Shown here one piece after another: positions 54,787-63,562 of a DNA stretch of 64,000 bases. A model generated the notes under the pieces. That model saw only the letters and a program-made list of their open reading frames with translations. It made no database searches and was not told the origin of the DNA. A program made the position numbers and the translations under genes. Position 1 is the stretch's first letter. Every line of letters starts with the position of its first letter. Source of the DNA: Clostridiales bacterium (lineage in GTDB: Bacteria; Bacillota; Clostridia; Christensenellales; DTU072); the NCBI GenBank assembly GCA_012800525.1, contig JAAZJD010000038.1:1-64000 (forward strand). The letters run 5' to 3'.

Positions 54787-57700
54787 TTAATCTATAAATT
54801 CTGAATCATCAACATCTTTTTTAGTTGTTTCTGTTTTTGCTTGTTTGACTTCTTGTTCTAGGTCTGTTGGCACTTTGCTTTTAACAATAATCTTTTGCCC
54901 TTTAACAAATCTAGCTTTAATTTTTCTAAATCCGATAATAGCTAATGCAAGCACTAGTATTGCGGCTATGACAATGGAAGAAACAAGCAACCATAACTGA
55001 GAATCTATTTTACCTTTTCCATCATCAGTTTTAGGATCTTCTTCTTTGGGATCTACTTCTAACTCTTCGTCCTTTGGAGCATCGAACTTATATGCAACTT
55101 CATTTGCAACTTGTTGATCAAACTCGTCTGCTGTCATATTATCAATTTTTTCTATTGCAACGTCATCTATTATTAACATTCCTTTGAAAAAGTTTTTAAC
55201 ATCTGTAGCATCAGCAGCTTTACCTATTCCATCATTGGTTCCAAGATGAAAAGCTATTTTATTAGAAGAAATTGTACTGTTTTTTTCATCGCTAAAGATA
55301 TAAAATGTATATTCTTTTAACTCAACACCTGATATTTCTACTATTTTTGTATTGTTTTCTGAATCTTTACCAGGAATAAATCTAAATTGTGCTTTATTAT
55401 CATTTTCAGTTAAAAGCTTTGCCCAAAAACTTATCTTATAATATTTATTAGCTTCAATATCAAATCCTGAACTCATTTCATAATATTGTCCATTTGCTTC
55501 AATGTTGACCATCATTAGGAAATTAGAACCTTGGCCATTATTGGATTCCAAAAATGCATTTAATTTATCGATATAGAATAAAGAAGTTTCCTCATCAAAT
55601 TTTTGTGATATTTTACCTCTTATTTGATCTGTTAGAGACTTTCTACTATATACTCCATTTAAGATTGCGGGAACCTCATCTCCCGTTGGTTTTTGATAAG
55701 GAACTGTCCCAGCCGGTTGATGATGCGTGTATGCACCAGGTTTCCTGCCTAAATAATCATCATTTGCATCTGAGCTACTATCAAAACTATCCACTCTATA
55801 GTCTACTATTGTATGTATTGCTTGATTGCTATATGGTGATTTTAATTCTTTAATATCTTTTAAAACATAGAATTCATTTTCTTTTATTTTATAATCTGCT
55901 TCTTCTTTGCCATCAATATTTTCAAGCCCGTAAGCATATAAATTAAACTGAGATTCATTTTCTAGTTTTTGAATATTTACATCATCAAAATAGACTGTGC
56001 CCTTTGATAAACCAAACTTACTGTCTTCATTTAAATCAATATCTTTGGCATATTTATTCCCTAAAGCAAGCTCTAAAGTAACTCTCCCGTCTACATAGCC
56101 AGTATTTATTAAAATTCTATATTGAACCCATTTATCATTAGTATTAATATCTGTAAATCCTGCATATTCACCCTTTCTATCATATGATTTTTTAACTAAG
56201 GTAGAGGAAGTATCTTCTAGTGTAATAGAAGCTTTGGTTTCTACACCTATAGTTTTTACCCAAAGCGTTACCAAATAATAGCTTCCTTTGGAAATTGTGT
56301 ATGTACCATTATACTTATATAATGCTGTTACTTCAGCATCAGGTGAACTAATCATAAGCAGATTGTCGCTGTTTGTACTTATATAATCTCCCTTTGTGGA
56401 ATCTCCATACATATTAGAAACTGCAGCACCTTCATCTATGTAACCAAAAGCATCGTAATGTTTATAATTTATTATCCCGTAAGTGACCTTAAGTTTATCC
56501 TCATTAGATATATTAGCTGGGAAATCACCAGTTCCTGCTCCTGAAATACTCAAAACCGTGGTTTTAGGTGAAAAAACTAAATCATAGTTTGTTCCACTAT
56601 GATGTGAGCCTTTTGGGCCAGCAGCTCTTATATAGTATTTCCCATTTCTTGTTGCTGTGTAAGATGTCGCATCTGGATTATCAATAATATTGACAAGTAT
56701 GTTATCTTTTTTTAGCGTTTTTTCAATTCCATCAATTACTTCTTTTTGCTCATACTCATTCATATAAACATAATAATGTGTTGCACCTTCTACTTTTTCC
56801 CAGGTTAATTTATCTGTACCATCAACTTTGAAAGATTTAACTGCCTCCAATCCAACCGCTTCTTCTTTATATTGCCAGTTAGTAGGAGTCACTTCTTTGA
56901 TTAAATAACCATCTTCACTAAACTTTTCCCTATTTTCATATTCTTTTGAATCAAAGGTTCTAAAAAATCCATTATCAAATGAGGAATTTTTGGAGCTTGT
57001 ACTATCTTTTGCGGAGATATCTTTGGTTGTATCTAAATTTTTATTTGCTTCAGTATACTCATCATTAGATATTTTTTGCCATGTAGGAGCGGTGAAAAAA
57101 ACTACACCAGCTGTTCTAGTGTCTAGCGCTGTGATATCCCCTTCTCCTAAAATAATTTCAAATCCAAATCTTTGAATTTCAGTCTCAGCACCTTTAATAT
57201 ATGCTACATATTCAGTCCATTCGTTAACATTTATATTTGAAAATGTTGCAAGTTCTGTTGATTTGTTTTTCTCTTCAGTATCAATTTGCCATATTTTGAC
57301 CTTAGCACCCATATTCGAAGGAATACCCTCTGTATTAATCCAAAATGAAAATCTATAAAAATTGTTTGGACGCACTAATAATAAATCTTCAAGACCAGCA
57401 TTAACTGGGTTCCCATGTTCATCTTTTGCATTTATATCAGAATCTTTAATGAAGAAACTTATACTTGAAGCTGTATCATTGCCTTTATGGTTTAGAACTA
57501 ATAAATCAGTATTTACCTCAACTCCGCCATGTTTTATTCTCAAAGTTCCTGGCCCTTTGCTGATCCCTTCAAGACCCACCACTCCATCAATAGGCTCAGG
57601 TGAATTTATAAAATCACTATTTCCTGAAACTTTGCCTGCTATTGAATTTTTTGATGCTTCATTTACACCAAGTTTCTCATCGTCAACTCGTTGATATTTC

Positions 57701-59637
57701 CAAACCTTACCTTCTGCTCCATCAAGTTCTTCAAAGTCTTCATTCGTAGAATCTACCAAATCAAAACCATCATAATCACCTTCGCTTAAAATTGATAGTT
57801 CATAATAATTTGATTCTTCTGATGGATCAACATCCTCCTTTACTGTAACTTTTAAATCATCAAAAAATGCTGCTCCAGGCATCAATGTAGAATCCCCCCA
57901 GTAACCATGCCCATACCAAAACTCAGGAGTTATTTCTCTTTTTGATAAGCTATTGCCCTTAATCTTTATGGTTAATTGTTCCCATCTGCCCCAATCTAAA
58001 GTAGAATAACTCAAAAGTTTGTCAGAATCTGTTACAGAAACACCTGAAACTTTAAACAATGCCTGTGCTTTGCTTTCCTTTTCGTAAAAGGCTTTATATT
58101 TGTTATATGTTTCAACTTTTTCTTCATATTCCTTTACTTTTGTTGCATCTTTTTGTTCTGATTCAGAAAGTGGGGTAGGTGCTTTCACTTGAGGGATCCA
58201 TATATAAACCCATACAGAAATATCATAGTATTTATCCTTTTCTATTGTTATTTTATTTTTTGCAGTATAACCCGCGCCACTAATCTTTCCTGAGGGATGC
58301 CAAATTAAAAGAGCTGTTGAGTCAATACTTGTGCCAGTCCTTCCATTATCTACATTTCCTAACAAATTGTAACTCCAGCTATCGTCAGCACCCTTTTTCA
58401 TGAAATGCTCATAATTTTGGGGGGCAACAAAAGTTGAATCAATTTTTTGATACTTATCAACTGCAACATCTTGCTCTTCATCATTTTTTCCTACACTATA
58501 AAGCTTTGACATATCAAAAATTCCAATTGGAAATTTGTTACTGCTATATGTTGGATAGTCTGGGAACTGATTTTTTTCGTCTGTAGTTAACTTTTTATCG
58601 CCTATAACAAAATCATACTGAGCTTGAATTCCTCTTTTTGCAGAATAATAGTACTCATTTGAAGAGCTAGAATACGATGCAGTGTAGTCTGTTATAGCAT
58701 TAAAACTAGGATCTACTACAGACAAATCCATATATCTTTCAACATTGCCATTCGCATCTTGTTTGTATTCACCATTTTCAAATGTACTTTTAATATCATC
58801 AATATCATCTACATTAGATATTTTTTCCACAAGAACATTGTCATATAAAACAGTACCTGCAGCTAAATATGGATTAGAATTTGTGGATGTGTTTATATAT
58901 TCTGGACCATGCCCCAACCAAAGTTTTAAATTAAATGTTGTGTTAGCATATTTATTTGTTGCGATATAAAAACTATATGTTTTCCAACTCTGTTCAGTAT
59001 TAATAGAAAGAATTTGCGAATACATAGTTGATGTAATTTCTATTGCAGCCCCACTATATTCTGTGGGCTCAAATAAATCAGTGTATACATCTATGCTTAA
59101 TTTATAAAATGAGTCTTTTGCTAAAGATGATGAATTAGATAGTGAAAAATACACTGAACCTTGTTTTTTATCTATATCAGGCATAGAAATAATCATAGCG
59201 TTTTTATCATTAAATTCACCATCTGCATTTTTAGGTGTTGATGGTGCTAAACCAGGGAATTTTGAAAAGGAATATTTGAGTTCAGCATTGGAAGAACTAT
59301 TAAAATTAAACAATGATTTCTTCTCGTTAAAAAGATTTTCTTCTAGTTCAATAACACCCATTTTCACTTTTGCATCTGAAGACTTAAATGAACCATCATT
59401 TTTCGTCCAATTAACAACTTCTGTTTGCAAATATGAATTGGGATCTTTAGCTTTTGCAAATTTAAATGATCCGTTGTTTATTAAAGTACCATCATTTTGA
59501 GTTGCTGGAGTTTCTTCAGGTTTTTTGTCCTCCACATTTGTTGACGGATCAACACATGCCGCAAGTAGCAATAAGCTAAAAATCAATATAATCGCTAAAA
59601 AAACTAGAAGTCGTTTTTGTTTATTCTTTTTCATCAT
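54787..59637 (-). CDS. Modular 1616-aa lipoprotein with several jelly-roll/CBM-like modules, an FN3-like segment and a C-terminal TM helix
   Basis: Lipobox LLLLAACVDP; recurrent 'YY.isvWv......W..y...i' and 'G..ffDdv.v..i' motifs; C-terminus LWLLVSSIVIAAILVLALAIIGFRKIKARF. Confidence 0.88.
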   Translation of the reverse strand: MMKKNKQKRLLVFLAIILIFSLLLLAACVDPSTNVEDKKPEETPATQNDGTLINNGSFKFAKAKDPNSYLQTEVVNWTKNDGSFKSSDAKVKMGVIELEENLFNEKKSLFNFNSSSNAELKYSFSKFPGLAPSTPKNADGEFNDKNAMIISMPDIDKKQGSVYFSLSNSSSLAKDSFYKLSIDVYTDLFEPTEYSGAAIEITSTMYSQILSINTEQSWKTYSFYIATNKYANTTFNLKLWLGHGPEYINTSTNSNPYLAAGTVLYDNVLVEKISNVDDIDDIKSTFENGEYKQDANGNVERYMDLSVVDPSFNAITDYTASYSSSSNEYYYSAKRGIQAQYDFVIGDKKLTTDEKNQFPDYPTYSSNKFPIGIFDMSKLYSVGKNDEEQDVAVDKYQKIDSTFVAPQNYEHFMKKGADDSWSYNLLGNVDNGRTGTSIDSTALLIWHPSGKISGAGYTAKNKITIEKDKYYDISVWVYIWIPQVKAPTPLSESEQKDATKVKEYEEKVETYNKYKAFYEKESKAQALFKVSGVSVTDSDKLLSYSTLDWGRWEQLTIKIKGNSLSKREITPEFWYGHGYWGDSTLMPGAAFFDDLKVTVKEDVDPSEESNYYELSILSEGDYDGFDLVDSTNEDFEELDGAEGKVWKYQRVDDEKLGVNEASKNSIAGKVSGNSDFINSPEPIDGVVGLEGISKGPGTLRIKHGGVEVNTDLLVLNHKGNDTASSISFFIKDSDINAKDEHGNPVNAGLEDLLLVRPNNFYRFSFWINTEGIPSNMGAKVKIWQIDTEEKNKSTELATFSNINVNEWTEYVAYIKGAETEIQRFGFEIILGEGDITALDTRTAGVVFFTAPTWQKISNDEYTEANKNLDTTKDISAKDSTSSKNSSFDNGFFRTFDSKEYENREKFSEDGYLIKEVTPTNWQYKEEAVGLEAVKSFKVDGTDKLTWEKVEGATHYYVYMNEYEQKEVIDGIEKTLKKDNILVNIIDNPDATSYTATRNGKYYIRAAGPKGSHHSGTNYDLVFSPKTTVLSISGAGTGDFPANISNEDKLKVTYGIINYKHYDAFGYIDEGAAVSNMYGDSTKGDYISTNSDNLLMISSPDAEVTALYKYNGTYTISKGSYYLVTLWVKTIGVETKASITLEDTSSTLVKKSYDRKGEYAGFTDINTNDKWVQYRILINTGYVDGRVTLELALGNKYAKDIDLNEDSKFGLSKGTVYFDDVNIQKLENESQFNLYAYGLENIDGKEEADYKIKENEFYVLKDIKELKSPYSNQAIHTIVDYRVDSFDSSSDANDDYLGRKPGAYTHHQPAGTVPYQKPTGDEVPAILNGVYSRKSLTDQIRGKISQKFDEETSLFYIDKLNAFLESNNGQGSNFLMMVNIEANGQYYEMSSGFDIEANKYYKISFWAKLLTENDNKAQFRFIPGKDSENNTKIVEISGVELKEYTFYIFSDEKNSTISSNKIAFHLGTNDGIGKAADATDVKNFFKGMLIIDDVAIEKIDNMTADEFDQQVANEVAYKFDAPKDEELEVDPKEEDPKTDDGKGKIDSQLWLLVSSIVIAAILVLALAIIGFRKIKARFVKGQKIIVKSKVPTDLEQEVKQAKTETTKKDVDDSEFID

Positions 59638-59826
59638 CTTTCACCTTATAAAATGTTATATTTTAAATCTATATTATATTAACATATAAAATGAGTTGAT
59701 ATCAACGAAATAAAATCTTAATTTTTATGACAGTTTTGTGATGCACTAAAATAAGATTGAATAATTTGCCTTAATAGTAGGATATTGTTACATTTTATGG
59801 TATTATAAATTTAATAGCTTATTGGC

Positions 59827-59928
59827 GACTAAGCAGAGTAGATATGAAACGTAAAGTGTCACGGAATGGGATGTTGTCTGTGAACGAAAGGGAAAACCTG
59901 CGATTTCATATCGCGTCCGTTGCGAGTC
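59827..59928 (+). ncRNA. Tetrahydrofolate (THF-I/folT-type) riboswitch aptamer
   Basis: GCAGAGTAGATATGAAACGTAAAGTGTCACGGAATGGGATGTTGTCTGTGAACGAAAGGGAAAACCTGCGATTTCATATCGCGTCCGTTGC follows the THF riboswitch pattern (GAGUAGA...GUxAAGUG...GAAUGGGAUGU...AACGAA...xUCCG); stems GACT/AGTC, GCAG/TTGC, ATATGAAA/TTTCATAT, TCACGG/CTGTGA; next gene is FolT-like. Confidence 0.93.
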
Positions 59929-59948
59929 TTTAAAACAACAATTGACGT

Positions 59949-59979
59949 GTCCTCTCTGCGTGGTAGGAGGACTTTTTTT
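59949..59979 (+). terminator. Riboswitch expression platform: intrinsic terminator overlapping the folT SD
   Basis: GTCCTC-tctgcgtggtag-GAGGAC-TTTTTTT; SD AGGAGG at 59965-59970 lies mostly in the 3' stem arm; ATG at 59980. Confidence 0.85.
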
Positions 59980-60579
59980 ATGAAAAAAACTTATTTTACA
60001 ACTAAAAGAATTGCTTATATTGCAATATTTACTGCAATGTCAATTGCATTAAAAACTTTTTCATTTAACGTTACAGTATCAAATAAAATTTCATTAATGA
60101 CATCCATGAATATACTTGCTGGTATTTTTACTGGGCCTATTGGAGGATTTATAGTTGGAGCTCTAGGTGATGGCATAGGATTTTTAATTAATCCTGCAGG
60201 TGGAGCTTGGATGCCTTTGATAACTCTTGTTTCTGGGCTTAGTGGACTTATTCCAGGTTTAGTTTTCAAAATAAAAAAATTACATTCGATAGTAAAAATT
60301 GTTTTATCTATCGTATTAGTTTACTTCATATGTACGGTTTTATTGAACTCTCTCATTATTTATTATTTTTTTATTCAAAATCGAAAAACATTTTTTGTTT
60401 GGTGGCTTACTAGAATCCCATTACAATCTGGTGTCTATTTAGTAAATTCTATATTGGTTATTGTTTTGTACAAAGTATTAGAACCTAGGATAAACTTTAA
60501 TTTTAAAGAGAAAAAAATAGAAATAACTTCTGAAAATATACCCAAAACAGAAATAAATGAAGCTGATTATAAACTTTAA
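59980..60579 (+). CDS. folT: Folate-family ECF transporter S component (FolT-like)
   Basis: MKKTYFTTKRIAYIAIFTAMSIALKTFSFNV...GIFTGPIGGFIVGALGDGIGFLINPAGGAWMPLITLVSGLSGLIPGL; THF riboswitch directly upstream. The ORF-track TTG start at 59920 is inside the riboswitch. Confidence 0.92.
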   Translation: MKKTYFTTKRIAYIAIFTAMSIALKTFSFNVTVSNKISLMTSMNILAGIFTGPIGGFIVGALGDGIGFLINPAGGAWMPLITLVSGLSGLIPGLVFKIKKLHSIVKIVLSIVLVYFICTVLLNSLIIYYFFIQNRKTFFVWWLTRIPLQSGVYLVNSILVIVLYKVLEPRINFNFKEKKIEITSENIPKTEINEADYKL

Positions 60580-60757: not shown

Positions 60758-63562
60758 TTATAAAACTTTATTTAAATATTCTCCCGTTGCACTATTTTTA
60801 TTTTTAGCGATTTCTTCTGGAGAGCCTGATGCAATTAAATATCCTCCTTCATCCCCTCCTTCTGGGCCTAAATCAATAACATGATCCGATACTTTTATTA
60901 TATCTAGGTTATGCTCGATTATTATTATAGTGTTGCCTTTATCAGCTAATTTATTCAATATATTAATTAATTTTTCTACGTCTGCCATATGTAATCCAGT
61001 TGTAGGCTCATCCAAAATATATAAAGTCCTACCTGTGCTTCTTTTTGAAAGTTCTGTAGCTAATTTAACCCTTTGAGCTTCACCTCCAGATAGTGTTGTA
61101 GAAGGCTGTCCGAGTTTAATATAGCCTAGTCCTACATCATTTAAAGTTTCAAGTTTTCTACTTATTTGTGGCATATTTTTAAAAAATTCAAGACCCTGTG
61201 ATACTGTCATGTCCAAAACATCAAAAATGGATTTCCCTTTAAATTTTACCTCTAATGTTTCATTATTGTATCTTTTTCCCTTGCAAACTTCACATGGGAT
61301 ATATACATCTGGCAGGAAATGCATTTCAATTTTGATAATTCCATCGCCCATGCAGTGCTCACACCGTCCACCTTTAACATTAAAACTGAACCTACCAGGT
61401 TTATATCCTCTTGCTTTAGCATCAGGAGTTTGAGCAAACAAATTTCTAATCATTGTAAACAAATCTGTATATGTCGCAGGATTCGATCTTGGTGTCCTGC
61501 CAATTGGACTTTGATCAATGTTGATAACTTTATCAAGATACTCTCTTCCTGTTATGTCAGAATAACTTCCCTCTTCAATGTTTGCCCTATTTAAATTATT
61601 TGCCAAATTTGGATAAATGATACCATTAACTAATGAAGATTTTCCTGAACCAGATACCCCTGTTACTGCTGTCATCAATCCTATTGGAAAATCGACATTA
61701 ATATTTTTCAAATTGTTTTGTTTCGCTCCTATTACTGATAAAAATCTTCCATCTTGCTTTCTTCTCTTTTGAGGCAATTTTATTTTTCGTCTACCCGATA
61801 AAAAGTCACCGGTAATTGATTTAGGCTCATTCATTATATCTGCAATAGATCCTTGGGCCACCAAATATCCGCCATTTTCACCAGCACCAGGACCAATATC
61901 AATAATATGATCTGCCTCCCTAATTGTTTCCTCATCATGTTCAACGACTATTAATGTATTTCCTAAATCTCTTAATTTTTTGAGTGTTGCTAGCAACTTT
62001 GAATTATCTCTTTGATGAAGACCAATGCTTGGTTCATCTAAAATATATAAAACACCCATCAAACCACTTCCTATTTGAGTAGCTAATCTAATTCTTTGGC
62101 TTTCTCCACCACTTAATGTTCCGCTAGATCTAGATAATGTCAAATACCCTAATCCAACATCAATTAAAAAAGTCAATCTATCATCAATTTCTTTTAAAAT
62201 GGGTTTAGCTATAAGCATTTCTGAATTTGATAACTTTATATGAGCAAAAAATCTTTTTAAACTAATGATTGGCATGTCACTTAATTGTGAAATATTTCTA
62301 CCATTAATCAAAATATGCAAAACTTCCTTTTTTAAGCGCTTCCCATTACAAATCAAACAAGGAGTTTCAACCATATACCTTTCTATGTCGCGCTTCACGC
62401 CTTCAGACTGAGTAGCATTATAACGCCTTTGCATTTTGCCTATAATGCCTTCATTTTTTTGTTGAATAATTTTTTGACCCCAATAAACATTAAGTATGTC
62501 ATCACTGCCATAGAAAATAATGTCTTTGTATTTCTTTTTTAGATTTTTCCAAGGAATGTCTAAAGAAAATTTATGTTTATCTGCCAACTGCTTTAAGGTC
62601 TTAGTTAAATTTGATTCAATGTCTATTAAATACCATCCACTTACTTTTATAGCACCTTGATTCAAAGACAAATTTTCATCAACAACAATCTGTTTTTCTG
62701 AAACTTGCATCTTTGTTCCAATGCCTGCACAATTTGGGCAGGCACCATAAGGGCTATTAAAAGAAAATAATCTTGGACTAAGTTCTGGTATAATAACATC
62801 ATTATGTATTGGACAAGCAAGTTTTGAAGAAAAGATATAATTTTGATTGTTAATATTTGCAACAACTAAACCTTTAGCTAAATTAAGTGCTGTTTCGATA
62901 CTTTCGTTTAATCTCCTAGTTATACCTTCTTTTATGACCAATCTATCTATAACGACATTTATATCATGTTTTAAATTTTTTTCTAGATTAATTTCTTCAC
63001 CAAGCTGGTATATTTCACCATCTACGCGCACTCTTGCAAAACCATTTTTATATAAATTTTCGAACTCTTTTTTATATTCACCTTTTCTTCCCCTAACAAT
63101 AGGAGCTTCAATTAGCAACTTGCTACCTTCATCAAAAGATAATATTTTTTGCACAATTTGATCGACTGTTATAGCTATAATTTCGGTTCCACATATTGAA
63201 CAATGAGGCACCCCTATCCTTGAGTACAACAATCTCATATAGTCATATATTTCAGTAACTGTTCCTACTGTTGAGCGTGGATTATTGCTTGTGGTTTTTT
63301 GATCTATTGAAATTGCTGGAGAAAGTCCATCAATAGATTCTACATTTGGTTTATCCATTTGTCCTAAAAACTGCCTTGCATAACTAGATAAACTTTCTAT
63401 ATATCTTCTTTGTCCTTCCGCAAAAATTGTATCAAAAGCTAAGCTAGATTTTCCTGAACCGCTTAAGCCTGTTAATACAACAAGTTTTTCTCTAGGAATC
63501 ACAACATCTAAATTTTTTAAATTATTTTCTTTTGCACCTTTGATAATTATATCAGTTAGCAT
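60758..63562 (-). CDS. uvrA: Excinuclease ABC subunit A
   Basis: [64 protein letters not shown]. Confidence 0.99.

Follow-up and report, generated by a model that had tools for sequence, protein, structure and literature searches.

What does a single hairpin between a THF-I aptamer and the start codon of a folate importer gene control: transcription, translation or both? The question is raised by one locus in a 64,000-nt stretch of DNA (the window), where an earlier note had proposed a THF riboswitch. A covariance-model search bears out the proposal: RF01831 (Rfam THF-I) matches positions 59832-59924 of the + strand over the whole model (1-99) with 71.2 bits, where the gathering score is 36 (E = 2.8e-14). 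Rfam has no other match in the window, and the genome of 1.78 Mb carries no second THF aptamer. Both closing helices that had been read from the letters are present, GACT (59827-59830) with AGTC (59925-59928), and GCAG (59833-59836) with TTGC (59920-59923), the latter with one G-U pair. RF01831 comprises folT, folE and folC switches of Gram-positive bacteria (PMC9881143, PMC6800512), and here too the aptamer stands directly upstream of a folate transport/synthesis gene, folT, whose product is a membrane protein of 199 residues with its start at ATG 59980. An in-frame TTG at 59920 was considered as an alternative start; it lies inside the aptamer, and the ATG, which has its own Shine-Dalgarno sequence (SD), is preferred. 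From its sequence, the locus is a THF-I riboswitch upstream of a folate importer gene, with a predicted response to the ligand. It has in common with other THF-I riboswitches the aptamer sequence and structure, the controlled gene and P1 as the switching helix; the aptamer shows no difference from them, whereas the details of the expression platform are the lineage's own. The features of the aptamer and the gene are as follows.

59827-59838, + strand: predicted switching strand GACTAAGCAGAG, the 5′ strand of P1 and its extension when ligand is bound and the antiterminator strand otherwise (sequence, folding)
59832-59924, + strand: THF-I riboswitch aptamer (RF01831), a full aptamer with a covariance-model score above the curated cut-off
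59920-59928, + strand: 3′ strand of P1 and its extension, TTGC and AGTC (sequence, folding)
59980-60579, + strand: folT, folate-family ECF transporter S component, 199 aa (TIGR04518, 88 bits with a cut-off of 60; PF12822 and PF07155)

The expression platform consists of a hairpin, a U-tract and the SD, the geometry of which, like the aptamer and the gene, was computed directly.

59949-59972, + strand: putative terminator/SD-sequestering hairpin, 10 bp with one bulge, -12.1 kcal/mol (folding)
59965-59970, + strand: Shine-Dalgarno AGGAGG, 9 nt from its last base to the ATG, fully paired in the hairpin
59973-59979, + strand: U7 tract of the putative terminator, abutting the start codon (sequence)

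The stem GTCCTC (59949-59954)/GAGGAC (59967-59972) and the T7 that follows it (59973-59979) are present as the earlier note had described, but the hairpin is longer than was stated there: it pairs as GUCCUC-(U)-CUGC-GUG-GUAG-GAGGAC, with 10 bp and one bulged U. Because of this greater length, the whole AGGAGG, which had been placed in the hairpin, is paired in the predicted fold (all six bases, 59965-59970). The T7 was said to end one base before the ATG, but it directly adjoins ATG 59980. A consensus terminator scan gave no match at 59949-59972, as it accepts only ungapped stems with loops of 3-8 and so passes over a stem with a bulge, and folding of the whole leader gave an energy only slightly below that of shuffled sequences (z = -1.5). 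Barrick and Breaker (2007) defined "dual transcription and translation attenuation" by a ribosome-binding site in the 3′ side of a terminator hairpin that lies at most 10 nt from the start codon, and proposed that such hairpins stop transcription and, failing that, translation (PMC2258182). The window locus likewise has an intrinsic terminator (stem and U-tail) downstream of the aptamer, which we call from the 10-bp hairpin and the U7 tract (PMC2258182 used the Rnall program); the hairpin ends at 59972, 7 nt from ATG 59980, with the SD on its 3′ side. This arrangement suggests one stem built both to stop transcription and to hide the ribosome site.

Is this arrangement a coincidence of a single locus? 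A search with the FolT protein reached only two related loci, 23-25% identical and from uncultured Oscillospiraceae, and whole genomes were therefore searched with RF01831, which gave a comparison set of 243 distinct loci in 55 families, with the start codons and SDs of the relatives assigned by rule and not by annotation. The SD lies inside a terminator-like hairpin at 171 of the 243 loci, a locus-level count in which members of the same family are not independent of one another. When the leader upstream of the SD was shuffled with its dinucleotides kept, SD hairpins with a dG of -8 or lower fell from 86% to 37% of 240 leaders, and SD hairpins with a U-tract (at least five T in seven bases) fell from 152 to 51, with the T-run itself kept as it was. 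Runs of at least five T between SD and start were found in 157 of 227 THF-I genes (69%); among the other genes at these loci the count was 3 of 121 (2.5%), a 28-fold difference. Other riboswitch genes carry them at 5/30 (TPP, same family), 1/28 (FMN) and 0/12 (purine, both from the same order), and the window's own family has the run in 34 of 37 members. The shuffles and the T-run counts, with the 171 loci, support the claim that one hairpin has the features of both a terminator and an SD-sequestering element, and on these comparisons the fused terminator/SD is a real, favored feature of THF-I here and not a single-locus coincidence. Two TPP riboswitch loci of the same family (L276 and L278) share this fused design (CTCCT...AAAAAGGAGTTTTTTTATG), which most TPP switches in the family lack.

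These counts also bear on a switch that works on translation only, in which the hairpin would merely sequester the SD and the T-run would reflect composition or spacing. Such a switch is consistent with the U-tract adjoining the ATG, with the pairing of all six SD bases, and with the SD-sequestered state being the thermodynamic minimum of the full-length RNA. However, a purely sequestering hairpin needs no U-tract, and the T-runs are both far commoner in THF-I genes than in neighbors at the same loci and seldom seen in the genes of most other riboswitches in related genomes; we therefore consider a translation-only switch quite unlikely.

The exact complementarity of GCAGAG (59833-59838) and CTCTGC (59954-59959), on which a P1-versus-antiterminator switch had been proposed, is present, and folding extends the predicted antiterminator by ACUA (59828-59831) with UGGU (59961-59964).

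59954-59964, + strand: 3′ strand of the predicted antiterminator, CTCTGC and TGGT, overlapping the terminator 5′ arm and loop (forced and free nascent folds)

In nascent chains up to 59945, the minimum free energy (MFE) structure is P1 with its GACT/AGTC extension, and in chains ending at 59962-59970 it is the antiterminator, with a probability over 0.99. At 59966, the antiterminator is favored by ∼8 kcal/mol over the most stable fold with P1 intact. With the 3′ arm fully made (chain at 59974), P1 plus the terminator takes the lead, by 3.6 kcal/mol over the antiterminator state, and at full length without ligand the terminator state is more stable by 3.6-4.2 kcal/mol; all of these energies ignore the pseudoknot of the THF aptamer and the ligand, both of which stabilize P1. 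THF at the pseudoknot site contacts U7 and controls the stability of P1 (PMC11477058). Folding with and without P1 constrained thus has the antiterminator winning until the 3′ arm of the terminator is made. According to the same models, P1 and the terminator can coexist without ligand, which counts against the mechanism; since the full-length terminator state is the more stable one without ligand, the ON state has to be a kinetic one or one that ribosomes maintain.

In the predicted antiterminator state, the SD starts directly after the last base of the helix and is unpaired. This raises the prospect of a purely transcriptional attenuator, in which the SD sits in the 3′ arm to save space and has no regulatory effect, and in which read-through RNA keeps the antiterminator. 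The nascent folds suggest that the antiterminator may indeed persist past the U-tract with the SD free, but because the terminator fold is the favored one at full length, the SD would tend to be hidden in read-through transcripts. There is also an experimental precedent for a gain from SD hiding: in the pT181 repC attenuator, one hairpin adds translational to transcriptional repression, from 85% to 98% (PMC5435934). We regard the purely transcriptional reading as unlikely. The terminator hairpin of pT181 repC also blocks the ribosome-binding site, as predicted for the window locus; repC is controlled by an antisense RNA, whereas the window locus is predicted to be controlled by a metabolite.

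If the aptamer 5′ strand and the platform do pair, they should change together between families. As loci within a family are not independent, the swap tests were done by family. When platforms were permuted among families, 25 of 20000 permutations reached the observed mean complementarity with the aptamer 5′ strands. The signal peaks in windows beginning at -1 to +1 base of the aptamer start (all families, 0 to 5 of 4000 permutations), is strongest at the P1 5′ strand and GAG, and has vanished in windows that begin 10 or more bases inside the aptamer; a restriction to the window's order weakens it (9 to 45 of 4000). Compensatory sets are found in the window's family, f1 (GCAGAG/CTCTGC), in f17 (ACAAAG/CTTTGT, TACAAAG/CTTTGTA and GCAAAG/CTTTGC), in f20 (TATGCAAAG/CTTTGCATA), in f6 (ACAGCAGAGT/GCTCTGCTGT and ACGGCAGAG/CTCTGCCGT) and in f3 (GGAAG/CTTCC). 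A fold-based test used chains that stop short of the SD. The 5′ strand pairs at 0.52 with its own leader and at 0.34 with those of other families, a difference of modest significance (family-level P = 0.011); in the window's family, the values are 0.72 and 0.39. The alternative pairing, its conservation and its covariation were computed directly, and the forced and free nascent folds together with the covariation between families support the switch proposed in the earlier note. Four relatives with GGTTCTTTGCAGAAGGACTTTTTTTATG (L011, L047, L048 and L049) keep the antiterminator helix via a G-U pair (TGCAGAG/CTTTGCA).

The strongest swap signal over all families comes from a window at the aptamer 3′ end and linker (3′-4), as would be expected if the antiterminator were formed by the 3′ strand of P1 or the downstream linker instead of GCAGAG. 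Where the leader is short, this window can reach into the platform, and we did not count the 3′-strand signal as evidence. At the window locus, moreover, the free nascent MFE structure is the GCAGAG/CTCTGC helix, and this helix is kept in the window's own family, so an antiterminator from another strand is very unlikely here. Elsewhere the 5′ strand is not always used. In families f48, f24, f38 and f11, the fold-based test gave the aptamer 5′ strand no preference for its own leader, and these families probably use another antiterminator strand; the class would then have at least one other platform design. By these comparisons, the antiterminator from the aptamer 5′ strand is not universal for THF-I. 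The loci of these four families have mostly SD-containing hairpins.

Taken with the dual reading of the hairpin, these data make it likely, in our judgment, that the THF-I riboswitch shuts folT off under plentiful reduced folate by way of a terminator/SD hairpin that is opposed by an antiterminator; the OFF direction is assigned by analogy with the known THF-I class. As the leader is transcribed, the aptamer would fold first. Without ligand, GACTAAGCAGAG would leave P1 and pair with CUCUGC(G)UGGU once this is transcribed. The antiterminator would then occupy the terminator 5′ arm and loop while the adjacent AGGAGG stays single-stranded, and in this state RNA polymerase could read on and ribosomes could start. 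With THF bound, P1 would be locked and CUCUGC free, and the hairpin GUCCUCUCUGCGUGGUAGGAGGAC-U7 would form, ending transcription and hiding the SD in any transcript that escapes. We infer both this ligand response and the actual occurrence of termination and translational block. A class-wide extension is more tentative, and we would place it slightly below an even chance: THF-I riboswitches in this bacterial class may be specialized on the fused terminator/SD platform, and in part of them the ligand-binding strand (the P1 5′ strand and the conserved GAG beside the pterin-contacting U) may act as a decoy for the SD, such that a single pyrimidine tract pairs with either the aptamer core or the SD and one strand couples ligand binding, antitermination and SD exposure.

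The fused design itself is already known (PMC2258182, PMC5435934). The 2007 survey predates the THF class, and THF-I here uses the platform far more than the related TPP, FMN and purine switches; in related genomes its frequency is ∼4 times that of TPP and far above that of FMN and purine, which raises the question of why folate should have a double lock. A literature search short of the main THF-I papers found no statement of the platform preference or of a 5′-strand antiterminator backed by covariation. The strength of this preference and the covariation support for the antiterminator are modestly new, although they may already be known. The covariation data single out the strand exchange to mutate, and the locus offers a clean case, open to experiment, in which one RNA hairpin would gate a vitamin importer at the levels of transcription and translation alike.

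folT is flanked by two genes on the opposite strand. uvrA (60758-63562, - strand) is convergent to it, and a consensus terminator scan found none between the two. Divergent from folT, at 54787-59637 (- strand), lies a gene for a predicted lipoprotein of 1616 residues with an LLAAC lipobox and a C-terminal transmembrane segment, for which no match was found in Pfam or NCBIfam. One candidate promoter element lies upstream of the aptamer.

59798-59806, + strand: candidate extended -10 element TGGTATTAT of the folT promoter (sequence)

The motif TGnTAnnnT occurs upstream of 21 of 36 members of the window's family, compared with 2.8 in shuffles. In the window, 25 nt separate the element from the aptamer; most copies in the family end 5-8 nt before it, a spacing that would place the transcript start of these relatives near the first base of the aptamer.
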